The notes beneath the pieces were generated by a model. That model was not told where the DNA came from, did not search any database, and was given only the letters and a program-made list of their open reading frames with translations. DNA of 33,283 bases from a virus. Where the stretch lies: the IMG/VR virus record IMGVR_UViG_3300023082_000027, positions 1 to 33,283 of that record; one strand, given 5' to 3'. The translations under genes were made by a program, and so were the position numbers. Position 1 is the stretch's first letter. The number at the start of each line of letters is the position of its first letter. Positions 9,432 through 32,041 of this stretch are shown here, piece after piece.

Positions 9432-9967
9432 TGATCACCAGTCGCGTCTACATGATCGCCGGTGGCCTGCTGCTCGCAGGTGCTGCCGTAGCGTACCACC
9501 TTGGGGTAGTGTCTGACCTCAAGGTCGAAGTGGCTCAGGCGCAGTCAGCGACGGCCACAGCCGACAAGAAGCTCAGCGACCGGATCGCGGCGGAGGCCAC
9601 CACCGTGGCGGCTGCTGTGACGAAGGCGCTGAAGACGGAGCGCGAAGACCGCGAAACTCAACAAAGGAAACTCGATGATCTCGAAGCTGCGAAGAAACGT
9701 GTTGATGGTGAGCTTGCTGCTGCTCGTGAGCGCCTGTACAACCTCGCCAAATCAACCCCCGCCCCCTCCGGTCCAGGTCGTGGAGACGTGCCCAGCACCG
9801 CTCCCTCTGCCAGCCGAGTACAAGAAGCCAGTGCCGGTGGACTATCACCTGCGGACAGAGCGCTTGTTGACGGATTACTTCAAGTCGCGGCCGACGCAAA
9901 CGCCGACGCAGCCGCCCGCAACTTCGTCTCCGATCAATACCAAGTGAGCTGCCAACGTGTCCAGTGA
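9431..9967 (+). CDS. Rz: Inner-membrane spanin (Rz-like)
   Basis: A 178-residue protein. Its ATG overlaps the endolysin stop (TAATG). One N-terminal membrane segment (about residues 5-25) is followed by a long periplasmic helix with heptad-like pattern from about 30 to 105 (QAQSATATADKKLSDRIAAE onward), and then a Pro/Ser/Ala-rich and helical C-terminus. This is the arrangement of Rz-type i-spanins, which join with an outer-membrane lipoprotein to fuse the two membranes at the end of lysis. The lipoprotein partner is encoded inside this gene in the +1 frame, as in lambda-type nested spanins. The call rests on topology and context. Confidence 0.8.
   Translation: MITSRVYMIAGGLLLAGAAVAYHLGVVSDLKVEVAQAQSATATADKKLSDRIAAEATTVAAAVTKALKTEREDRETQQRKLDDLEAAKKRVDGELAAARERLYNLAKSTPAPSGPGRGDVPSTAPSASRVQEASAGGLSPADRALVDGLLQVAADANADAAARNFVSDQYQVSCQRVQ
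9675..9947 (+). CDS. Rz1: Outer-membrane spanin lipoprotein (Rz1-like), nested in Rz
   Basis: A 90-residue protein entirely inside the Rz-like gene in the +1 frame. An AAAGGAAA ribosome site lies 4-11 bases upstream of the ATG. It has basic residues, a hydrophobic core (VLMVSLLLLVSAC) and a lipobox ending at Cys21, then a proline-rich mature part (PPPPPVQVVETCPAP) that is typical of Rz1. It probably tethers to the outer membrane and binds the Rz C-terminus. The nested layout and the lipobox together make this a firm call. Confidence 0.82.
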   Translation: MISKLRRNVLMVSLLLLVSACTTSPNQPPPPPVQVVETCPAPLPLPAEYKKPVPVDYHLRTERLLTDYFKSRPTQTPTQPPATSSPINTK

Positions 9968-10178
9968 CAACCTCGACTTCGCCACGGAACTTGCTCAGCG
10001 CGAGCGGGACCACGCGGCGACGATCCGCAAGCCTGTGTTGGTGCGGACCGGAAAGTGTAAAGCCTGCGAAGCTCCCTTGGAAGCCTCGCAGGCTTTGTTC
10101 TGCGACAAGGACTGTGAGCAGGACTACTTGCGTTTGCGCCGCTCACTGACCATAGCGGGTCGCGCTATCCCTGGTTGA
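9957..10178 (+). CDS. Small zinc-finger protein
   Basis: A 73-residue protein with a GTG start that overlaps the end of the Rz-like gene. After a short charged helix it carries a four-cysteine motif, CKAC then FCDKDC (C-x2-C and C-x3-C), followed by YLRLRRS. The pattern suggests a small zinc ribbon. Such proteins are common near phage lysis cassettes but their role is unknown to me. It is the last plus-strand gene and its end overlaps the end of the convergent minus-strand gene by 14 bases. Confidence 0.65.
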   Translation: MSSDNLDFATELAQRERDHAATIRKPVLVRTGKCKACEAPLEASQALFCDKDCEQDYLRLRRSLTIAGRAIPG

Positions 10179-10668
10179 CGTAGCCTCGCCCGGGTTCCGC
10201 GCCCGTGGCAGGGTCGGTCACCAGTCGGCGCTGCACCGGGATCACCTCCATGCCCTGCGCCTCCTGAATCAAACCGTCGATCAGGTCCATGGCGAACTGG
10301 AGGCGGCTGGCGTCCTCATACCAGGTGTCCATCAGCTCGCACACCATGCCCTCGTTGGCCGTCAGGCCGTTCGTCTCCGCGTAGGCGTACATGTCGACGC
10401 GCGGCCACGCCAGCAGGCAGACGTTGTTGGCGACGCTGTGGACGTGGGTTTCCACGCCGTGAGCGGCCACCACCTCGATCAGCTTCTGGAGGAAGTGCTT
10501 GGCCTTGTTCAAGTCCTCCAGTCCATTCTTCTTGCGCCAGCGGGTGACGTACTTGGACACTTGGCCCTCGAAGTAGCCCAGGCCGTTCGCGGCGACCATG
10601 TCCCAGTGCTGGATGGCCACGCCCTTGTAGTGCTTGCCACCGACTTGTGTTTCATTCGCCAAAGACAT
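10165..10668 (-). CDS. DUF3310-like phage protein
   Basis: A 167-residue protein. The N-terminal 65 residues contain QVGGKHYKGVAIQHWD, then GYFEGQVSKYVTRWRKKNG and LEDLNKAKHFLQKLIE, the hallmark sequence of the DUF3310 family, which is common in phage DNA-metabolism regions. The C-terminal 100 residues are a helical extension without a known motif. Its biochemical role is unsettled, although some relatives are annotated as nucleotide kinases. It is the last gene of the minus-strand operon and overlaps the HD-domain gene by 17 bases, which ties it to nucleotide metabolism by context. Confidence 0.75.
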   Translation of the reverse strand: MSLANETQVGGKHYKGVAIQHWDMVAANGLGYFEGQVSKYVTRWRKKNGLEDLNKAKHFLQKLIEVVAAHGVETHVHSVANNVCLLAWPRVDMYAYAETNGLTANEGMVCELMDTWYEDASRLQFAMDLIDGLIQEAQGMEVIPVQRRLVTDPATGAEPGRGYVNQG

Positions 10669-11227
10669 TTGTGTACTCGCTTCTCAGTTGGTTGTAAATT
10701 GCCGCGCTCACGGGAGTGTGATCGACGGCTTCCAGCCAGCAGAGGTAGTTGAAGAACCCCTCCTGGATGTCGCGGTTGCCCCGGCGCAACTCGAAGGCGG
10801 CGAACATCGCACCCTCCAGCATGTCGCACATCTTGAGCAGTTTCGTTTCAGCCGGCGTGAGCTCAGGAATGACCAAGCCAAGTTCCGCCATGAAGGCGTC
10901 CTCCAGCTCGTCAAACCTCCCCTTCACGCCCGCCAACTTCTTCGTCGGCCCCGGCACGTCGCCGAACTTGCGCTCAGCGGTGTCGTGCATCAGGGCGGCG
11001 ACCAGCAGATTGCGAGACGCCATCGAGTCCAGCAGCAGGATCAGCTGCATGACGCTGTAGGTGTGCTCGCCCACGCTCTGGATGTGTAGTGTGGGCTCCG
11101 TGTGCCAGCGCTTCGTTCGTGCCGACGATTCCAGGTAGCGCAGCAGCCTGAGCTGCCCCCGGCTGAGGGCCGACCCATCGTGGTTGACGAAGGCCGGCGC
11201 CACGCGCATGTCGATGCCGGTGCTCAC
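10652..11227 (-). CDS. HD-domain nucleotide phosphohydrolase, YfbR-like
   Basis: A 191-residue protein. The GTG at 11227 overlaps the stop of the thymidylate-synthase-like gene (GTGA), which is preferred to the upstream in-frame start lying inside that gene. HD metal ligands are visible as His55 (SVGEHTYSV), His81-Asp82 (ALMHDTAERKFGDVPGP) and Asp135 (KMCDMLEGA), and Arg40-Trp41 match the RW pair of YfbR. The YfbR family removes 5'-phosphate from deoxynucleoside monophosphates. In this operon an attractive inference is destruction of dTMP, so that host thymidylate does not compete with the modified precursor. Confidence 0.78.
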   Translation of the reverse strand: MSTGIDMRVAPAFVNHDGSALSRGQLRLLRYLESSARTKRWHTEPTLHIQSVGEHTYSVMQLILLLDSMASRNLLVAALMHDTAERKFGDVPGPTKKLAGVKGRFDELEDAFMAELGLVIPELTPAETKLLKMCDMLEGAMFAAFELRRGNRDIQEGFFNYLCWLEAVDHTPVSAAIYNQLRSEYTNVFGE

Positions 11228-12324
11228 TTCGCTGCTGCCTTGGCCGCGCGAGCCTTGCCACGGTTGTCGAACCAGGTCTGGCACGCCCACACCCAGTCCT
11301 GCGCCGCGATCTCAGGGCAGTCCTCCCAGAGCGTCTGGATGTCGTCGCCGGCCTTGTAGCGCGCGTGAAGGCGCATCATCGGCACCGCCACCTCGCTGAA
11401 GAAGGGCAGGGTGAAGTCGTTGGACTCGCCCAGCGGGTCGGTCACGAAGGCTTCGCACTGGCGCAGCCACTCCAGCGGGTCATCGATGTGGCTGATGATC
11501 GGGTACGGCGACACCTCGATGTCGTACACGCTGTCATCGACAATCTTGACGGACCAGCCATCCCGGCTGTGGGTGCTGGTGTCGATCAAGCGCTGGACAT
11601 CCGGCCGGTCGATGTAGGCGTGGTAGTTGTTGCTGAACTGGTGGTACACGCCCAGCGGCATGCGGATCGCGCCGGCCACGAACTCGTGGAGCATCGACAT
11701 GTGGACCACGTTGGCCCCGTAGGCGCCCCAGACGACATCGTTGGAGCGGTTCAGGACCGTCATGTCCAGGTGTCCCCGGGTGCCGTCGAAGTAAATCTGC
11801 GTGTTGCAGGGCACGTCCTTCGCCGTCTTGCCGCCGATGCCCGCCACTCCGGGGATCATGTCGCCAACCGGCCCCCACATCGTGACCACGGCGCGGCGCG
11901 TCTTCGGGTCGGAGCGGAGCTGGTCGATGACCTCCAGCAGCTGGTCGAAGCCGAAGTGCTTGCGCCAGCGGTAGCCGTAGGCGCCCCACTGGAGGCCATC
12001 GTCAGCAAAGGCTTCCATCTGCTTGGCGAAGTTGGACACCATGGCGACTTCGTTGCGGCCGGCCAGCATCCACAGCGACTCGAACAGGTGGAAGAAGGGG
12101 TTGGCGTCGCGCTTGGCGTTCATGATGACGCGCTGGCGCGGGTGGCTGTAGGTCGTAATGACGGGAGCCGGGGCCACGAGCACGCGGCCGTTGCGGCTGT
12201 CGTTGATCTCGCCGGCCACCTTCAGCCAGTAAAGGCCGTCCACCAGCGCCTGGTCGGGGCTGTTGGCGACGATCACACGGGGCGCGCGGAAAGCCGGCCC
12301 CAGGTTTGCTTGTGCTTGGTTCAT
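11224..12324 (-). CDS. Thymidylate-synthase-fold enzyme, probable dUMP hydroxymethylase
   Basis: A 366-residue protein with the thymidylate synthase fold: RDANPFFHLFESLWMLAGR, the catalytic loop DVPCNTQIYF, LNRSNDVVWGAYGANVVHMS and SNNYHAY. The catalytic Cys, the Arg and Asp of the RSxD motif, and the HxY near the end of the core are all present. Asn replaces the His that follows the catalytic Cys in classical synthases. An Asn is kept at the position that selects the uracil ring, arguing for dUMP rather than dCMP as substrate. In a 5-hmdU hypermodification operon the likely reaction is hydroxymethylation of dUMP using methylene-tetrahydrofolate, but ordinary dTMP synthesis cannot be excluded by sequence alone. 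Confidence 0.82.
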   Translation of the reverse strand: MNQAQANLGPAFRAPRVIVANSPDQALVDGLYWLKVAGEINDSRNGRVLVAPAPVITTYSHPRQRVIMNAKRDANPFFHLFESLWMLAGRNEVAMVSNFAKQMEAFADDGLQWGAYGYRWRKHFGFDQLLEVIDQLRSDPKTRRAVVTMWGPVGDMIPGVAGIGGKTAKDVPCNTQIYFDGTRGHLDMTVLNRSNDVVWGAYGANVVHMSMLHEFVAGAIRMPLGVYHQFSNNYHAYIDRPDVQRLIDTSTHSRDGWSVKIVDDSVYDIEVSPYPIISHIDDPLEWLRQCEAFVTDPLGESNDFTLPFFSEVAVPMMRLHARYKAGDDIQTLWEDCPEIAAQDWVWACQTWFDNRGKARAAKAAAK

Positions 12325-12339
12325 GAGTGACAGGGTCTT

Positions 12340-12822
12340 TCAGCGGAGGGAGGGGTGGAGGAACGTGGACAGGTCAGCGGCCTTCCAGCCGGCCGGCTTC
12401 AGCACCTTGCCGGTGTCGGGGTCGCGGTGGAACGTGCCGTCAGGGAACTTCTTGGCCCAGTTGGCCAGCGCCACGCCGTGGTTGTAGGCGCCGTGGAGGT
12501 CGGAGCCCATGGCCGCGCTCGCGCCAATGGTGACCCAGAGCAGGTCAGCGTCGCCGTCCAGAAGCTCTTCAGCCATGTCGGGGTCTTCCATCGCGGCCTT
12601 GACGTGCGCGTCGGTGTCGCTGTCGCCGGCCTTCATGGCGTTGCCCAGGCCGATGAGGCGCACGGTCAGGTCGTTCTTGCCGAACACGGCCACCAGCTTC
12701 TCGGCCAGCTCCTCGCACTGCATGCCCATGTAGAAGGTCAGCTGGCGCACGTTGGGTTCTGCGCCGTGTGGAATCTGTTGCGTCTCTGCGAACCAGTCGC
12801 GGGTCTGTTTGATTTCGCTCAT
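12340..12822 (-). CDS. MazG-like nucleotide pyrophosphohydrolase
   Basis: A 160-residue all-alpha protein. I chose the ATG that overlaps the upstream stop (ATGA). The metal-binding signature is EE-x2-E at residues 37-41 (MQCEELAEKL) and E-x2-D-x3-D at about 86-93 (EELLDGDADLLW). The C-terminal segment (ANWAKKFPDGTFHRD, then KVLKPAGWKAADL) is typical of phage MazG-like proteins. The family converts dNTPs to dNMPs plus pyrophosphate. Placed next to the hydroxymethylase, it could supply dUMP from dUTP or remove dTTP. The substrate is not readable from sequence. Confidence 0.78.
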   Translation of the reverse strand: MSEIKQTRDWFAETQQIPHGAEPNVRQLTFYMGMQCEELAEKLVAVFGKNDLTVRLIGLGNAMKAGDSDTDAHVKAAMEDPDMAEELLDGDADLLWVTIGASAAMGSDLHGAYNHGVALANWAKKFPDGTFHRDPDTGKVLKPAGWKAADLSTFLHPSLR

Positions 12823-13676
12823 TTGTCGATGCTCCGTTGCTTGGGTTGGTACTTGCTCCGGGACGTACCCCGGCGCCACTTGCTGTACTCACAGAGGCAG
12901 TTCTGTAAGTCCTGACCCGTGATCGGGCCAAGGGTCTTGAGGTACGGTGCCACCTCGTTTTGGAACACTGCGAAGGCAGCGCGCCACGTTTGCTCAGTCC
13001 ACTTCGCGTCTGGGTGGCCGGCTTCGACCCAGCTCAGCCCCTTCATCGAGCCGGGGCCGGAGGTCGCCCACGTCATGAAGTCAGGCGCTTGGCCCAGCGG
13101 GCCGTCAGCGTACTTCGTGTCTGCGACCACTTGGCCGGCCATGAAGCTCCCCATGTCACGGCACTTGACCAGCCGCTTGTGGAAGGCGTCCAGGGTGTCG
13201 CCCTCCTTCGGGCGAAGCTCTTTGCGGGCGTCCCACATGGGCTGAAGGACGCGCTCAGCCAGATACGCCGCCTTGGTACCGCCGTGGTGAGCGTCCGCGT
13301 GGATCATGTAGGCGCCAGTGAACACCTTCTCCCCGCGCTCACGCCGTCCATCCATCGCAGCGACGAAGCGCCCAGACATCCACGGCACCGGGTAGCCAAT
13401 CTCGGCCAGAGACGGCCACCAGTTCACGAGGCGGGCCACGACCATGGCGAACCACACGTCAGGCTCGCGCGAGTGCGGAGCCAGCCAGTGTTCGTGGATG
13501 AGACGTGACTCACGGTCGTCGTTGCGCCGCACGTTACAGAAGCGGTACGTGGCCAGCACCGGGTCTTTGGTCCATGGCGGTACGTGACCGGCCTCCTTGC
13601 GCACGCGGATGCGCTCGCGCTCCAGGACGAAGCGGGCGAACAGCTTGAGCTCAGCGGCCTTGAAGCGGTTGGTCAT
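12819..13676 (-). CDS. 5-hmdU DNA kinase-type helical domain protein (hypermodification)
   Basis: A 285-residue helical protein. The N-terminal third contains LERERIRVRKEAG, then PPWTKDPVLATYRFCNVRR (residues 33-51) and WFAMVVARLVNWWP, matching what I recall as the 5-hmdU DNA kinase helical-domain family (first described as thymine pyrophosphorylase clade 1). This family co-occurs with P-loop 5-hmdU kinases in phages with hypermodified thymidine. The C-terminal part has KWRRGTSRSKYQPKQ and is basic, as expected of a DNA-acting protein. It is locked into the operon by ATGA overlaps on both sides. The exact catalytic contribution is unclear. Confidence 0.78.
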   Translation of the reverse strand: MTNRFKAAELKLFARFVLERERIRVRKEAGHVPPWTKDPVLATYRFCNVRRNDDRESRLIHEHWLAPHSREPDVWFAMVVARLVNWWPSLAEIGYPVPWMSGRFVAAMDGRRERGEKVFTGAYMIHADAHHGGTKAAYLAERVLQPMWDARKELRPKEGDTLDAFHKRLVKCRDMGSFMAGQVVADTKYADGPLGQAPDFMTWATSGPGSMKGLSWVEAGHPDAKWTEQTWRAAFAVFQNEVAPYLKTLGPITGQDLQNCLCEYSKWRRGTSRSKYQPKQRSIDK

Positions 13677-13960
13677 GCGGGCCTCCCTTCGGAGCGCGGC
13701 AGGACGACCGGACCGCTGTCACGCACGCCCTTCGACCGGATCGAGGCTACGCCGTTCGTGTGAACGTCGCTGGGGCGCCAGGTGTAGCCGCACTGACCGC
13801 AGAGGTGCGAGCGGTGGGGCGGGTTGGTCCACGGCTGCTCGTTGCGAGCCAGCTTCTCCAGCACCGTTTCTTCGCCGTCAGGCGCGTCGATGTGCTGGAC
13901 GCCGCAGCACGGGCAGAACAGGATGATGTCGACAACGATGTTGCCAAGATCGCGGAACAT
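13673..13960 (-). CDS. Small zinc-ribbon phage protein
   Basis: A 95-residue protein. The ATG at 13960 is preferred because it shares bases with the kinase stop (TGATG); the longer open frame to the right is inside the kinase gene. Two cysteine pairs form a zinc ribbon: FCPCCGVQHIDAP and HLCGQCGYTWRPSDV, joined by PWTNPPHRSH. This compact pattern recurs in many phages of Proteobacteria, but no function is established that I know of. Its position between two DNA-modification genes makes a DNA-binding accessory role possible. Confidence 0.72.
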   Translation of the reverse strand: MFRDLGNIVVDIILFCPCCGVQHIDAPDGEETVLEKLARNEQPWTNPPHRSHLCGQCGYTWRPSDVHTNGVASIRSKGVRDSGPVVLPRSEGRPA

Positions 13961-14556
13961 CAGATTGGCTCCTTCATCAGCTTGACGCCGAACAGCTTGA
14001 ACACGTCCTTGGCCGGGGTGAGGTGGCTGATCACCGCCGTCTTGCGGGGGCCGATGGTGCCGACCATCCCCATGTCCAGCTTGCGGCGCAGGCGGTCGAT
14101 GGTGTCCCACTTGGCGTTGACGTTCGTGAAGTCAATCAGCGGGTCGGCGCCACGGACGGCGCGGCGGGTGTTTACGCGCTGGCGGCACTTCTCCACCGGG
14201 GTGTCCATGAACGCCCAGATGAAGTCGTTGCCGAAGCGTTCCGACTGCGCGCCGATGTGACCGAAGGTCGTGGACAGCAACGCGCCCTCGAACAGCACGT
14301 GGCTGAAGCGCTCCAGACCGAATTCGACCAGCGGCCAGATGCGCGCGAAGGGCTGAACGGCGTCGCAGCCACCACACGCAGTTTCGTAGGGGCCGACGAT
14401 GAACAGCTGCTCCTTGTTGGGGAGCAGAGTGGTGTAGCCAATCGGCTTCTTCTGGCCGTCTTGCATGACCCGCTCTGCGCCGTACTTGGCCATGACGCGG
14501 GTGACGGTCGTGCTCTTGCCAGAACCGTGGGTGCCGTTGAGGCGAACGATTGTCAT
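13960..14556 (-). CDS. P-loop kinase, probable 5-hydroxymethyl-dU DNA kinase
   Basis: A 198-residue P-loop kinase. The Walker A motif GTHGSGKST spans residues 8-16. HVLFEGALLS lies at the Walker B position and a basic lid-like segment (CRQRVNTRRAVRG) follows. The start has GGAGAAG upstream and overlaps the previous stop. In phages with thymidine hypermodification, P-loop kinases phosphorylate 5-hydroxymethyluracil within DNA to create the leaving group for amino-acid transfer. The co-operonic transferase, helical kinase-type protein and hydroxymethylase strongly support this assignment. A nucleotide monophosphate kinase acting on hm-dUMP is the main alternative. Confidence 0.8.
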   Translation of the reverse strand: MTIVRLNGTHGSGKSTTVTRVMAKYGAERVMQDGQKKPIGYTTLLPNKEQLFIVGPYETACGGCDAVQPFARIWPLVEFGLERFSHVLFEGALLSTTFGHIGAQSERFGNDFIWAFMDTPVEKCRQRVNTRRAVRGADPLIDFTNVNAKWDTIDRLRRKLDMGMVGTIGPRKTAVISHLTPAKDVFKLFGVKLMKEPI

Positions 14557-14759
14557 TTGGCTTCTCCAATCTTGTTGGGCATGTTGTAATACGCCTTGGA
14601 GTCGGTCGCCGGGATGACGACTTGGACGCACTCGGCGGAGGTCGCCCCGCGCTTGACGAAGACGGCGCGGGCACGCTCGCAGCTGGCCATGTCGGCCATC
14701 GGCGGCACCGGGTTGAGCGTGCCCAGCCCGTAGTACACGAGTATGTAGACAACGATCAT
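14553..14759 (-). CDS. Small unknown protein with hydrophobic N-terminus
   Basis: A 68-residue protein with ATGA overlaps at both ends. It starts with a short hydrophobic stretch (MIVVYILVYYGLG, with no charge) that could be a membrane anchor. A soluble part contains two cysteines, MASCERARAVFVKRG and TSAECVQVVIP. I recognise no family. Tight coupling to the flavin enzyme and the kinase suggests it is translated in fixed ratio with them. Confidence 0.55.
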   Translation of the reverse strand: MIVVYILVYYGLGTLNPVPPMADMASCERARAVFVKRGATSAECVQVVIPATDSKAYYNMPNKIGEAK

Positions 14760-14977
14760 GGCTTGCGTAGCTCCACGAAGGGTTGGAGGGCTTCGGCGAA
14801 GGCTTCGGCGTTGGTGATGAGGGACTCCGTGATGGCATCCATCTCATAGTCGTTGACTGACATACCGTGAACCAGATCGCGGACAGCACCCTGGATGCTG
14901 GCGAGGTAGGCTTGCTGCTTCGCCTTGAGGCGCACCAGCTCAGCCACTTCGGCTTCGGTGAGGCGTTCAGCGGCCAT
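14756..14977 (-). CDS. Small helical unknown protein
   Basis: A 73-residue protein that is almost entirely helical: LTEAEVAELVRLKAKQQAYL, then a second helix around DAITESLITNAEAFAEALQP. The ATG start overlaps the flavin-enzyme gene by 11 bases and its stop overlaps the next start. It has no cysteine motif, no membrane segment and no family I recognise. By position it may be a small subunit or adaptor in the modification pathway. Confidence 0.55.
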   Translation of the reverse strand: MAAERLTEAEVAELVRLKAKQQAYLASIQGAVRDLVHGMSVNDYEMDAITESLITNAEAFAEALQPFVELRKP

Positions 14978-15806
14978 TGAGCTGACGCACGAAGCGCTCC
15001 GCTTGCCACGCCGCCAACACGGTGCCGTTCTTGGCTCCTCCGGTGCTGACCCACGTGTTGGGGTGGACCTTCTCGAAGAAGCCGGCCTTGTGCCCTTCGA
15101 CGTAGGGGCGCGCGCCCACGAACACCTTCTTGCCCGCCACTGGGAGCCCGAACAGGTCCACGGCGCGGCCCAGGGTCGTCTCGATGCGCTGCGCCGACTC
15201 CTTGCGCCACGTCTGCTCGATCAGCGCGGTGCCGTCGCCCATCCACACCTCCTTCTTGGTCATGTTGAAGGCGACCGCTTGACGGTACGGGGCATACACG
15301 CTGATCCGGGGCTCAGCGAGCTGCGCGCGGACGCGGACTGAAGCACCCCACAGGCCACGGATCGTCGGCATGGTAGCGAGTGAACCTGACCACACGCCGG
15401 CTGCGATCAGCACCTTACCCTTGAGGCGGTCCGGCTTGAAGTCGGGCGAAGTCTCCACGTCCACCCAGCCGTTGCCGACCGCCACCACCTTGCCAACGAT
15501 GTCGGCGGGCACCAGGATGTCGGCGGGGTCTACCCGGGACGCCTTGAAGCTCTTGATCATGTTGGTCTGGAACACCACCGGGTGGACGGTGTAGAGCTGG
15601 GCAAGGACGGCCATGGCCGCTTCGGCCGTGTCCTTGCCCAGTGAGCTCAGCCACGAAGGAGCCAGCACACACCCGGAGGCGAGGCTGGCTGCGTTGGCTT
15701 CGTTGTTGCTCACTACGGTGACGGAGTGGCCGTGCGCCCGCGCGAGGGTGGCGGCAATCGAGCCGAACAGCCCGTTGCCGACGATGATGACGTTGTGCTT
15801 AGCCAC
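14967..15806 (-). CDS. FAD-dependent DAO-family enzyme, predicted aminoacyl-thymidine trimming enzyme
   Basis: A 279-residue flavoprotein starting at GTG behind GAAAGG and overlapping the transferase gene by 8 bases. The dinucleotide-binding motif GNGLFG (G10-x-G12-x2-G15) is followed by a strand ending VTVVSN. KVLIAAGVWSG and the C-terminal TGGAKNGTVLAAW match the D-amino-acid/glycine oxidase fold. It is shorter than typical members (about 370), so peripheral elements are missing. In characterised thymidine hypermodification pathways, flavin enzymes convert a glycine attached to the thymine methyl into an aminomethyl group. The neighbouring transferase makes this the most likely role. The exact chemistry is an inference. 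Confidence 0.8.
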   Translation of the reverse strand: MAKHNVIIVGNGLFGSIAATLARAHGHSVTVVSNNEANAASLASGCVLAPSWLSSLGKDTAEAAMAVLAQLYTVHPVVFQTNMIKSFKASRVDPADILVPADIVGKVVAVGNGWVDVETSPDFKPDRLKGKVLIAAGVWSGSLATMPTIRGLWGASVRVRAQLAEPRISVYAPYRQAVAFNMTKKEVWMGDGTALIEQTWRKESAQRIETTLGRAVDLFGLPVAGKKVFVGARPYVEGHKAGFFEKVHPNTWVSTGGAKNGTVLAAWQAERFVRQLNGR

Positions 15807-16695
15807 TGATGCCTTTCGAGAGTTGTTGGGCCAGGTCGCCCCAGCCCTTGAGCCCGTGAACGATCTCACGGGTGTCCTTGCCCACCGGGTAGTGACCCTT
15901 GATGTGGGACTTGTACTTGCAGAAAATCGTCTCAATCTCCTGGATGTTGAGGGCGCGCTTCAGACCCGGCAGGGAGCCGACCTTGTGGCGCTTGTTGAAG
16001 GTCTTGATGTAGTAGGCGACGCTCTGGCTGATCTCCTCCGGCACAACGGGGTACGTCCAAGGCTTCGCCTCATACGCGGCGCGCTCGCCAGCGTCCAGGA
16101 TGCCGCCGGAGCCCATCCACTCCAGATAACCGACCGCTGCGCCTTGTGTCGGGTCTTTGTACATGTTCAGCGAGCAGTTGTCGAAGTTGACGCCGTAGCC
16201 CAGCACGCGCTCCGCCATGTCCGCGATCTTGAACGACATCCACGGACCGAAGCCCGGGTGAGACTCCACGTTGCGGGCCACGCTGGCAAACGACAAGTTG
16301 TCGCGCTCCGCTTGATGCGCGCCGGTCATGCCTTCGACGGCCGCAGAGGCTGTCTTGTACTTGACTCTGAGGTAGGCCATGGGGCCGGTCGCGTTCGCAG
16401 CGCGGAAGTGGCGACGCTCTGCGCCCCGGGGCCAAGGCTTCGTCGCCTGCGGAGGCGCCTTGGGGTGGGCCACCTCGTTGACTGCGGCCTGCGTCATCAG
16501 CTCCCAGAACTTCTTGGGGGTAGTGCCGCGCTCCGCGATGAAGGACGCGGTGCCCAGAGAGTAGAAGCACCAGTAAGCCAGGCACAGGCGGTCCAGGGTG
16601 GCCGAATCGAGCGAGGCGGAATTCATGGCGAGGTAGACCGGGTCAAGGTCGCCGCTCTTGAGCAGCTTGTCGCCAAACGTGATGATGGTTTCCAT
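15799..16695 (-). CDS. Amino acid:DNA transferase (alpha-glutamyl/putrescinyl-thymine pyrophosphorylase type)
   Basis: A 298-residue helical protein with GGAG 8 bases before the ATG. Signature segments are LCLAYWCFYSLGTASFIAE (residues 37-55), WPRGAERRHFR (88-98) and HPGFGPWMSFKIADM (146-160), which I recognise as the clade of amino acid:DNA transferases. These enzymes displace the activated phosphate on 5-hydroxymethyl-dU in DNA with the amine of an amino acid. It is the first gene of the modification operon, directly followed by the flavin enzyme. The amino acid used cannot be read from sequence; glycine is favoured by the flavin partner. Confidence 0.82.
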   Translation of the reverse strand: METIITFGDKLLKSGDLDPVYLAMNSASLDSATLDRLCLAYWCFYSLGTASFIAERGTTPKKFWELMTQAAVNEVAHPKAPPQATKPWPRGAERRHFRAANATGPMAYLRVKYKTASAAVEGMTGAHQAERDNLSFASVARNVESHPGFGPWMSFKIADMAERVLGYGVNFDNCSLNMYKDPTQGAAVGYLEWMGSGGILDAGERAAYEAKPWTYPVVPEEISQSVAYYIKTFNKRHKVGSLPGLKRALNIQEIETIFCKYKSHIKGHYPVGKDTREIVHGLKGWGDLAQQLSKGISG

Positions 16696-16707: not shown

Positions 16708-16736
16708 AAAATGACAACGGGGCGTTACGCGCCCCG
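16708..16736 (-). terminator. Probable rho-independent terminator
   Basis: A 7-bp perfect stem CGGGGCG/CGCCCCG (16718-16724 with 16730-16736) encloses the loop TTACG. Read on the minus strand it is followed by TTGTCATTTT. It lies just after the Lys/Ala-rich gene and before the transferase start, so it probably attenuates entry into the modification operon. The weak T tract makes it an imperfect terminator. Confidence 0.55.
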
Positions 16737-16762
16737 TGGTCTGGTTGGTTGAGGGATGTGGT

Positions 16763-17686
16763 TTAGACCGGAACGAAGATTTCCCAGTACACGCAGTCAG
16801 CCACCTTCACACGGGCCTTGCCGGGGTCGCGGCCCAGCGACACCATCTTGTCAGCGATCTGCTGGCGGGTGAAGGTCTTCATCTTCACGGCTTCTTCGAC
16901 ATAGGCGGCAGTCTCGCCACGGCGTGCGGCGGTCGCGTCGGCCACCTTCAGCTTTTCGTCGTTGGCAGCGCGGACCGGGGGAGCCTTGGCGCTGGTGGCT
17001 GCGTTCTTGGCCGGCGGCTTCGCGCCCGACACCACGGTGGCGATGCCGTTCTTGGCAGGCGTCTTGGCAGCTGCGTTCTTGGCCGGAGCCGTCTTGGCAG
17101 CGGGGGTCTTCGCGGCCGGGGTCTTCGCAGCGGGCTTGTTCGGCGCGGCCACGGGCGTCTTGCTGATGGTGCCCTTGCCGGCAGGTGCGCCGGATGCTGC
17201 GGCGGTCTTCTTTGCGGGAGCGGTTTTTGCGGTAGCCATTTCGATGTCCTTGGTAGGTTGAGGAAGTTTGGGAGTGAGATTGTATACCGTCAAAGGGTCT
17301 TTGACGATAGCCTTCAGGTGATCCCGCACCTTGGGGTCGATTTCCCGATACTTGCCGGCTTCGAGGTAGACCTCAGCAGCGCGGCGAACGGGGTATTCTG
17401 AGAATTCTTCCCAGTCCGCGCGGAACTCGCGCAGGTGGGCTTTCTCCAGGGCCATCGAGGCCATGGGGATGAAGTAGGCGTGCGTGTCGTCGGTCTTGAC
17501 ACGGATGCACGAATAGGACTGGCCGATGCGGCGGCAGACGGCGGCTGGCAGCGTCTCCAGCTCCTTCGCGTCCCGGGCCTCCTTGGCCAGTCGGGCGTTG
17601 CGGGCGTCCACGGACTCCGTGAGCTTGATCTTGGTGACGGCGGGGGCGACCTTCTTGGCCGCGACCTTCTTGGCCGGCGCCTTCAC
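16763..17686 (-). CDS. Conserved N-terminal domain fused to Lys/Ala/Pro-rich histone H1-like tail
   Basis: A 307-residue protein with a GTG start that overlaps the previous stop (GTGA). Residues 1-25 are Lys/Ala-rich. Residues 26-140 form a charged domain with VCRRIGQSYSCIRVKTDDTH and EFRADWEEFSEYPVRRAAE. Residues 155-240 are low complexity, with repeats of the kind PAAKT and PAKN, resembling AlgP or histone H1 tails. The last 60 residues contain MKTFTRQQIADKMVSLGRD. An internal ATG at 17239 sits behind AAGGA and could start a separate 158-residue product covering the tail. A nucleic-acid-binding role is inferred from the charge. Confidence 0.6.
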   Translation of the reverse strand: MKAPAKKVAAKKVAPAVTKIKLTESVDARNARLAKEARDAKELETLPAAVCRRIGQSYSCIRVKTDDTHAYFIPMASMALEKAHLREFRADWEEFSEYPVRRAAEVYLEAGKYREIDPKVRDHLKAIVKDPLTVYNLTPKLPQPTKDIEMATAKTAPAKKTAAASGAPAGKGTISKTPVAAPNKPAAKTPAAKTPAAKTAPAKNAAAKTPAKNGIATVVSGAKPPAKNAATSAKAPPVRAANDEKLKVADATAARRGETAAYVEEAVKMKTFTRQQIADKMVSLGRDPGKARVKVADCVYWEIFVPV

Positions 17687-19654: not shown

Positions 19655-19868
19655 CGTATCCTCTGTGTAGCAGTTGGGCGTGCCGGAGCACTTGGTGTGG
19701 GTCGGGCTTCTCGCCCGGGGCTTTGAATTCTATGAGCAGTGGCGTGACTGGAATCCAGAATATCTGGTCAGGGTCGCCGCCCTGCCCCAGCTTGCTGGAC
19801 TCCACGCCGTACAGCTTGAGTGCGCGCTCACACACCCAGCGTTCAATGGGGGCTTCTAAGCCGGGCAT
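19485..19868 (-). CDS. VRR-NUC domain nuclease
   Basis: A 127-residue protein. The ATG at 19868 overlaps the acetyltransferase end by 13 bases. The VRR-NUC core is seen as GGDPDQIFWIP (D32, D34), LLIEFKAPG (E47-x-K49), HQVLRHAQLLHRGYDVQV (Q59) and EEALAAVKAAL. The family is a PD-(D/E)XK nuclease found in phages and in FAN1. Residues beyond about 95 (KKSRQVLARSLF to the end) lie inside the helicase gene in another frame and look unconserved. It is commonly paired with a SNF2 helicase in phages, so a joint replication-repair role is likely. Confidence 0.78.
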   Translation of the reverse strand: MPGLEAPIERWVCERALKLYGVESSKLGQGGDPDQIFWIPVTPLLIEFKAPGEKPDPHQVLRHAQLLHRGYDVQVHDNREEALAAVKAALDAAPVPKKSRQVLARSLFSSVVSGSRARQDLHQRRRK

Positions 19869-20242
19869 CTGAGCACCATTTCGTGTTGGTAGTTCGTGCG
19901 GGCGTAGGGGACCGGCCTGAAGCCGTGACGCCTGTACAGCGCCTCCAGCTCCTGGATGGTCGGCCGGCGCACGGAATGATGGCCAGAGCGCTTCGGGCCG
20001 TAGGGGCTTGCATACAGCCACAGGTCGGCCCCTTCGCCTGCCGCGTAGGCCACGGCGGTTTCGATCAGGGTGTGGCTCCAGCCGAGCCCTCTGCGTAGCG
20101 GGTGGACGTACAGCTCAGTCAGGAACAGGAGCGGCACGCCCTTCCGCTGAACCGACCGGAGCACGGCGGGGTCGGTGACGGGGCGCACGGTGACTTCGCC
20201 AATGAAGCCCCCGGCGCCTACGGTCCAGCGGACTGGGTTCAC
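19856..20242 (-). CDS. GNAT-family N-acetyltransferase
   Basis: A 128-residue protein with a GTG start that overlaps the exonuclease stop (GTGA). The acetyl-CoA pocket motif is in FLTELYVHPLRRGLGWSHTL (R51-G-L-G54 region). GADLWLYASPYG and ELEALYRRHGFRPV are the usual later strand and helix. The substrate is unknown. In the PaMx11-type pathway an acetyltransferase caps the aminomethyl group on thymine, so this gene is a candidate for the same step even though it is about 3 kb from the modification operon. Acetylation of a protein or small molecule is an equal possibility. Confidence 0.75.
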   Translation of the reverse strand: MNPVRWTVGAGGFIGEVTVRPVTDPAVLRSVQRKGVPLLFLTELYVHPLRRGLGWSHTLIETAVAYAAGEGADLWLYASPYGPKRSGHHSVRRPTIQELEALYRRHGFRPVPYARTNYQHEMVLRCPA

Positions 20243-31408: not shown

Positions 31409-32041
31409 TCAGCGTTTGCGGCGACCGGGCGGAGGCGGAGGAGGCGGTGCCGGGGGTGGCGGGGTCACGGCCGGCTTCGCTGCTTGGCTCGTGCGGTCCT
31501 GGTTGTAGGCGCCCCGCTCTGCGTAGCTTCGCTCAGCCGGGACCGGCGCATGGCGGTGGAAGATCATCTGGCCGACCTTGTCACCCGCGTAGAGCGCCAG
31601 CACGTGCTGCTGCGTGATGTTGTGAAGTTCCAGGGTCAGCGCCGACCCGTGCCAGCCGGGGTCGCACCACACCGCCAGGGCGTGACTGAGGCCCATGCGC
31701 GCCACGCTGCTCTTCAGCCTGAACTCCGCGCTGAGGGTCAGCGGCAGGTTGAACGTCTCCAGCGTCTGCGCCAGGATGAACTGGCCGGGGTAGAGCAGGA
31801 AGGGCTCGGCGCCCTCCTCCGACCGATCCTGAAGCCGCACCTCATCGAAGGCCAACGACTCCCTGGCGCCCAGCTCCACCACCGGGTACGACAACTCCTC
31901 CGGTCGCTCGTGCTCGACAAGGATGGTGCCGCCCAGGCGAACGTCGATGCTGGACCCGTTGATGTTCGCGTCCGGCACGTTCGTCATCACGTTGCGCTGG
32001 ACGACTTCCAGGCGCAGTTCCTTGTAGCTGAGGAGGCTCAC
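31409..32041 (-). CDS. dcd: dCTP deaminase
   Basis: A 210-residue enzyme of the dUTPase/dCTP deaminase fold, with a GTG start overlapping the previous stop. Visible motifs are INGSSIDVRLGG, YPGQFILAQTLETFNLP, RLKSSVARMGL with S111 and R115, and HALAVWCDPGWHG followed by TLELHN with E138, positions that coincide with the catalytic Ser111, Arg115 and Glu138 of E. coli Dcd. It turns dCTP into dUTP, supplying dUMP for the hydroxymethylase in this genome. The C-terminus has an added polyproline tail and basic end. A bifunctional dCTP deaminase/dUTPase is possible but not shown. Confidence 0.85.
   Translation of the reverse strand: MSLLSYKELRLEVVQRNVMTNVPDANINGSSIDVRLGGTILVEHERPEELSYPVVELGARESLAFDEVRLQDRSEEGAEPFLLYPGQFILAQTLETFNLPLTLSAEFRLKSSVARMGLSHALAVWCDPGWHGSALTLELHNITQQHVLALYAGDKVGQMIFHRHAPVPAERSYAERGAYNQDRTSQAAKPAVTPPPPAPPPPPPPGRRKR

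Follow-up and report, generated by a model that had tools for sequence, protein, structure and literature searches.

The stretch of viral DNA analysed here, IMG/VR virus record IMGVR_UViG_3300023082_000027, was taken whole (33,283 bases, GC content of about 64%) and is referred to below as the window. The plus strand carries tail and lysis genes, and the minus strand carries replication and modification genes; a tRNA search of the 33,283 bases found none, and the record is probably a fragment, not a full genome. Eleven minus-strand genes running from 16695 to 10165 form one tight operon, which the original prediction had presented as a complete set of overlapping genes that would install an amino acid on 5-hydroxymethyl-deoxyuridine (5-hmdU) in DNA. 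The eleven genes are there, and nine of the ten junctions overlap, by 1-17 nucleotides (nt). From the end of the amino acid:DNA transferase (ADDT) to that of the DUF3310 gene the overlaps are 8, 11, 4, 4, 1, 4, 4, -15, 4 and 17 nt, so that the description as overlapping fails only at the 15-nt gap between the MazG-like gene and the gene with a thymidylate synthase (TS) fold. The core frames are all intact and near full length.

Pfam and PHROGs profiles served to assign families, and the PDB was searched by sequence for matching structures. The operon is real and its genes are correctly assigned; a chance assembly is excluded because the proteins have full-length matches in phage PaMx11 in the same order, and because the same gene order recurs in IMG/VR.

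Predicted genes for the decoration of 5-hydroxymethyl-deoxyuridine

The first gene of the operon (15799..16695; this and all operon coordinates below are on the minus strand) encodes an ADDT of the aGPT-Pplase2 family (PF18724, E=1.5e-14, over the cut-off), a predicted glycine transferase. By sequence it matches the PDB entries 8z2m and also 8z2n, structures of a PaMx11 enzyme named 'Glycinyltransferase' (E 4.5e-50), as well as 25qc (2.3e-52), and it is 37% identical to gp46 of PaMx11 and 38% identical to its counterpart in the M6-like phage MP1412. The second gene (14967..15806; DAO/FAD family PF01266, 1e-12) encodes a flavin-dependent lyase, predicted to convert N-alpha-glycyl-thymidine to 5-aminomethyl-deoxyuridine (5-NmdU). 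This FAD protein matches over its full length the entries 8z2o/8z79, 'Flavin-dependent lyase' (6e-48), and shows 37% identity to PaMx11 gp47 and 41% to its counterpart in phage Sonora; the sequences of gp46 and gp47 agree with those printed for the matched glycinyltransferase and lyase entries. The flavin-binding motif GxGxFG, W52, APY (172-174), GDG (190-192), RP (233-234) and K259 are at least 90% conserved among 38 relatives. A scan of IMG/VR with the FAD protein of the window as single query gave no match.

The P-loop 5-hmdU DNA kinase (13960..14556; PF18748, 1.1e-5) has the P-loop GTHGSGKST and is 34% identical to PaMx11 gp49 (1e-22). Its helical partner, HMUDK_hel (12819..13676; aGPT-Pplase1 family, PF18723, 1.7e-35), is 32% identical to the protein of Sonora (3e-35) and homologous to PaMx11 gp50. 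Four genes of the operon had received no name in the original prediction. Two of them are small open reading frames (ORFs) of 73 and 68 amino acids (14756..14977 and 14553..14759) that together fill the slot of the PaMx11 acetyltransferase gp48; they have no match in Pfam or PHROGs and no homologue in the related loci. The third encodes a small CxxC-rich, zinc-ribbon-like protein (13673..13960) with the motifs CPCCG and CGQCG, which matches phrog_14118 (6e-5) and no Pfam family. The fourth is the DUF3310 gene.

Predicted genes for the synthesis of 5-hydroxymethyl-deoxyuridine

The TS-fold enzyme (11224..12324; PF00303, 7.5e-16; phrog_5131, 2e-108) is a predicted dUMP 5-hydroxymethylase. It was compared by alignment with a genuine TS (6auj) and with MilA (5b6d), a CMP hydroxymethylase. 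The catalytic C173 is kept, and Asn205, a uracil-type residue, stands at the position of an Asp in MilA. The tryptophan pair of TS is gone and replaced by Met103/Phe106, the equivalent residues of MilA being Ile/Tyr. The TS-fold proteins of sibling loci agree: 79/79 keep both the catalytic Cys and the Asn205 position, with either Phe or Tyr at W83, where MilA likewise has one of these residues; the W80 column differs by one between the two TS alignments, and the sibling column that was counted is never Trp. Since C173 and N205 are kept, the Trp pair is lost and the siblings are alike, the active site fits that of a hydroxymethylase of the uracil type, and the predicted activity is that of a dUMP hydroxymethylase.

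The putative MazG-like nucleotide pyrophosphohydrolase (12340..12822) matches phrog_671 (6.7e-17) and no Pfam family; its AlphaFold model is too weak to support the assignment (pLDDT 58), and the gene is conserved in three related IMG/VR loci (L005, L023, L024). The YfbR-like HD-domain protein (10652..11227; PF12917, 2.1e-7), a 5'-deoxynucleotidase with a predicted role in the removal of dTMP, is 37% identical to PaMx11 gp52. The conserved last gene of the cassette (10165..10668) encodes the DUF3310 protein (PF11753, 2e-7), a homologue of PaMx11 gp53 and MP1412 gp19. Elsewhere in the window, a dCTP deaminase-like gene (31409-32041, minus strand; PF22769, 4e-30) could feed dUMP to the hydroxymethylase.

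The profile searches thus place the ADDT, FAD, kinase, HMUDK_hel, TS-fold and HD proteins (PF18724, PF01266, PF18748, PF18723, PF00303 and PF12917, the kinase below the cut-off) and the MazG-like protein (phrog_671) in the families named in the original prediction. Neither these searches nor the PDB matches 8z2m and 8z2o put the proteins outside the hypermodification families, which would have spoken against that prediction.

Comparison with named phages

The window is collinear with gp46-47-49-50-51-52-53 of PaMx11 (NC_028770): the ADDT, flavin lyase, kinase, helical protein, TS-fold enzyme, HD nucleotidase and DUF3310 protein follow one another in the same order with identities of 32-44%, and every gene from gp46 to gp53 has a counterpart except the acetyltransferase gp48. 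In PaMx11 gp48 lies between the FAD and kinase genes, whereas the window has there the two small ORFs; the CxxC ORF and the MazG gene of the window are further differences. The two phages are of different lineages, their polymerases being 24% identical. Stenotrophomonas phage Sonora (MZ326860) shares with the window the ADDT, FAD lyase, kinase, helical protein and TS-fold gene and likewise has no acetyltransferase, since scans of its complete genome with PF00583 and PF13508 gave no GNAT match; however, it carries Nmad5 in place of MazG, is devoid of the HD gene and has a distant polymerase.

The M6-type operon (M6, MP1412, SN1), which yields 5-NedU, has the same backbone of ADDT, kinase, helical protein, TS-fold enzyme and HD protein in the same order. 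The composition of the M6-like cassette (PMC9476957) and the 5-hmdU kinase step (PMC6449724) have been described. In these phages the tailoring slot holds pyridoxal phosphate (PLP) and radical SAM enzymes instead of a flavin lyase, and Nmad5 replaces MazG. M6-type tailoring was ruled out for the window, as none of its ORFs is a homologue of MP1412 gp11 or gp12 (PLP, radical SAM). A nearest-DNA search found no close named phage spanning the operon.

By polymerase, the nearest named relatives are the Stenotrophomonas phage AXL_3 and ctUtU524 (L108, L109). They share with the window a polymerase 43-45% identical, a PDDEXK nuclease, an SNF2 helicase and a TS-fold gene downstream; the parts of them that were read showed no ADDT cassette. 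Their TS-fold proteins have Asp at the N205 position, which fits dCMP hydroxymethylases of the cytosine type, and this suggests that cytosine and thymine modification systems have been exchanged.

Related loci in IMG/VR and probable loss of the capping gene

The loci mapped in IMG/VR comprise 18 with a FAD lyase and 80 with an ADDT. Where a sibling locus has the FAD lyase, its gene is close to that of the ADDT. The lineage of the window was defined by the same polymerase, nuclease and helicase block upstream. Within it, an operonic GNAT acetyltransferase occurs at three different positions (L006/L007, L008, L009, L024-L027, L033, L034 and L035, those of L024-L026 scoring under the Pfam cut-off), and is lacking from the window, L005, L023, L029 and L116. 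These last four have the same operon without a GNAT, and the FAD lyases of L005, L023 and L029 are 51-62% identical to that of the window. The two small ORFs seen in the window are lacking from all four, a MazG gene is found only in L005 and L023, and in L116 a different long ORF separates the FAD gene from the kinase gene. In a tree of concatenated ADDT and FAD proteins, built with L116 left out, the lineage has 100% support and the group without operonic GNAT is nested inside it with a support of 60%; the loss of the cap, once or more, is therefore the simpler reading.

By its helicase (73% identity), the nearest relative of the window is L115. It keeps the MazG, TS-fold, HD and DUF3310 genes, and a TAGT glycosyltransferase (PF20691, 3.4e-24) takes the place of the genes from the ADDT to the helical protein; a search for an ADDT in the L115 record gave no match. 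From this gene content, it appears that 5-hmdU is made by the enzymes of the downstream half of the operon and decorated by those of the upstream half. L115 and L122, close relatives of the window, both carry a TAGT gene instead of the ADDT, FAD, kinase and helical genes; these TAGT genes and the Mom-family gene of L115 lie at L115:7735-8514, L115:4124-4714 and L122:15190-16002. A separate observation concerns L021, where the kinase gene of an ADDT-FAD operon is separated from the helical gene by one for an FkbM-type methyltransferase (9543-10238), with base methylation as a possible role.

Proposed pathway and alternatives

We propose, with a probability of about 0.7, that the operon serves thymidine hypermodification in a tailed phage and is of the PaMx11 type, in which glycine is turned into a 5-aminomethyl group, and that the amine most likely stays free. 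The pathway chemistry reportedly goes back to Lee et al. 2018/2022 and Wen et al. 2024. The TS-fold enzyme would convert dUMP to 5-hydroxymethyl-dUMP, the HD nucleotidase and the MazG-like enzyme would deplete dTMP and dTTP, and host kinases would raise 5-hydroxymethyl-dUMP to the triphosphate (no hmdUMP kinase was found), which the family A polymerase of the phage would insert into DNA as 5-hmdU. After replication, the P-loop kinase and its helical partner would pyrophosphorylate part of the 5-hmdU, the ADDT would swap the pyrophosphate for glycine, and the flavin-dependent lyase would cleave the glycine to leave 5-NmdU. Its free amine would be a cationic group in the major groove, blocking restriction and other nucleases. 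The substrates, the reaction order, the end product and the protective role are predictions that build on the gene families, their order, the orthology to PaMx11 and the key TS-fold residues described above.

The type of pathway is one already characterised in PaMx11, and the operon is probably a variant of it that ends at 5-NmdU. The original prediction of a hypermodification pathway holds, except for the amino acid retained on the thymine: the lyase of PaMx11 that the FAD enzyme matches takes off most of the amino acid, so that no whole amino acid is expected to be left. The set of genes is near-complete; to call it complete was too strong, given that an operonic acetyltransferase and an hmdUMP kinase are wanting and that the record is a fragment. 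A tblastn search of the window with gp48 of PaMx11 was negative up to E=10 and, together with PF00583 and PF13508 scans of the whole record, rules out an acetyltransferase hidden in the operon. With no acetyltransferase in the operon, the amine most likely stays free. At odds close to even, we would hold that the final base is cationic, free-amine 5-NmdU and that this sub-lineage has lost the acetyltransferase for the cap, which its siblings keep or replace.

Several points weigh against the proposed pathway with a free amine. The kinase scores 25.4 bits against PF18748, just under the curated cut-off of 27 bits, although the kinase of PaMx11 itself reaches only 18.1 bits. The proteins of the window are 30-44% identical to those of named phages, and all of the chemistry is assigned by homology. 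Known ADDT systems often add further groups, and the small ORFs may have a tailoring role. A capping enzyme could also be encoded beyond the ends of this 33-kb fragment. Moreover, a GNAT acetyltransferase unlinked to the operon (19856..20242, minus strand; PF13508, 3.6e-6) is present between the exonuclease and SNF2 helicase genes, the only GNAT that the PF00583 and PF13508 scans found in the record and the only candidate in it for capping the amine. If it acetylates the amine, the same pathway would end at 5-acetylaminomethyl-deoxyuridine, the end product of PaMx11. The slot of this gene holds a GNAT in 5/5 genomes without operonic GNAT (window, L005, L023, L029, L116) and a Mom-family protein, of a family of DNA-modification enzymes, in L115, and the gene is absent from the cytosine-type AXL_3 and ctUtU524. 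However, it also occurs alongside an operonic GNAT in L025, L027, L033 and L006/L007; it has no similarity to the operonic acetyltransferases at E<1e-4; and a good homologue (4e-20) is found in L122, a locus with a TAGT glycosyltransferase and, in the part that was read, no FAD lyase. Matches in the ADDT-less L120, L129, L131 and L140 were discarded as out-of-frame stretches over the exonuclease gene, so that L122 alone remains. The unlinked GNAT could acetylate the amine, yet its distribution argues against a dedicated role, and we regard an acetylated end product as unlikely.

Still less probable is that the amino acid installed by the ADDT stays on the base, the FAD enzyme being inactive as a lyase or otherwise employed. 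Different ADDT families use different amino acids, which would leave room for such an outcome; nevertheless, the conserved motifs of the FAD protein, its full-length homology to a characterised lyase and the proximity of its gene to that of the ADDT in sibling loci speak for lyase activity. The missing acetyltransferase, the insertion of small ORFs unique to the window and the fragmentary record might also be taken as signs of a decayed, non-functional remnant, or 5-hmdU might be the sole product; with core frames intact, overlapping and near full length, and with motifs and collinearity conserved, we find this very hard to credit.

If the proposed pathway is right, the glycine-to-5-aminomethyl route extends to a phage lineage that, judged by its polymerase, is unrelated to PaMx11, and a natural form without the acetyl cap would be at hand to test what the cap contributes to evading restriction.

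An amidoligase-like gene in sibling operons

An amidoligase-like gene (PF12224) is found near the FAD gene in 14 distinct loci with a FAD lyase (L012:6684-7622, L018:8860-9825, L096:4449-5357, L040:11843-12772 and ten further loci); the nine members tested all match PF12224 (best 4.4e-6), and no match to this family was found in the record of the window. Among 41 FAD loci the gene is present in none of the 13 with an operonic GNAT and in 14 of the 28 without one (Fisher p = 0.001, relatedness ignored). The predicted structure (pLDDT 92.9) resembles ligases of the glutathione synthetase/glutamine synthetase type, with low TM-scores (best query TM 0.46). The ligase-type fold of the model and the absence of the gene wherever there is an operonic GNAT suggest that the enzyme may ligate an acid to the amine of 5-NmdU, possibly capping it with an amino acid. 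We know of no description of such a gene in these operons, and one literature search gave no amidoligase-like variant among the titles and abstracts listed. Two operons of this type also contain genes of the low-molecular-weight phosphatase family (PF01451; L012:7618-8076 and L018:10516-11073).

The comparative set suggests a conserved backbone of transferase, kinase, helical protein and hydroxymethylase with an exchangeable tailoring slot, which holds PLP and radical SAM enzymes, the FAD lyase alone, the FAD lyase with an acetyltransferase, or the FAD lyase with the amidoligase-like enzyme; in L115 the entire decorating half appears to have been swapped for the TAGT glycosyltransferase.

Sequences upstream of the operon

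Promoter and Rfam scans gave nothing exceeding chance. A GC-rich hairpin with an 8-bp stem (16717-16737, minus strand) precedes the start of the ADDT gene by about 22 nt; sites of this kind are no more numerous in the region than in shuffled sequences. Directly upstream of the operon, a gene conserved in the lineage (16763-17686, minus strand) encodes a repetitive, histone-like protein rich in Ala, Lys and Pro and without a family match.

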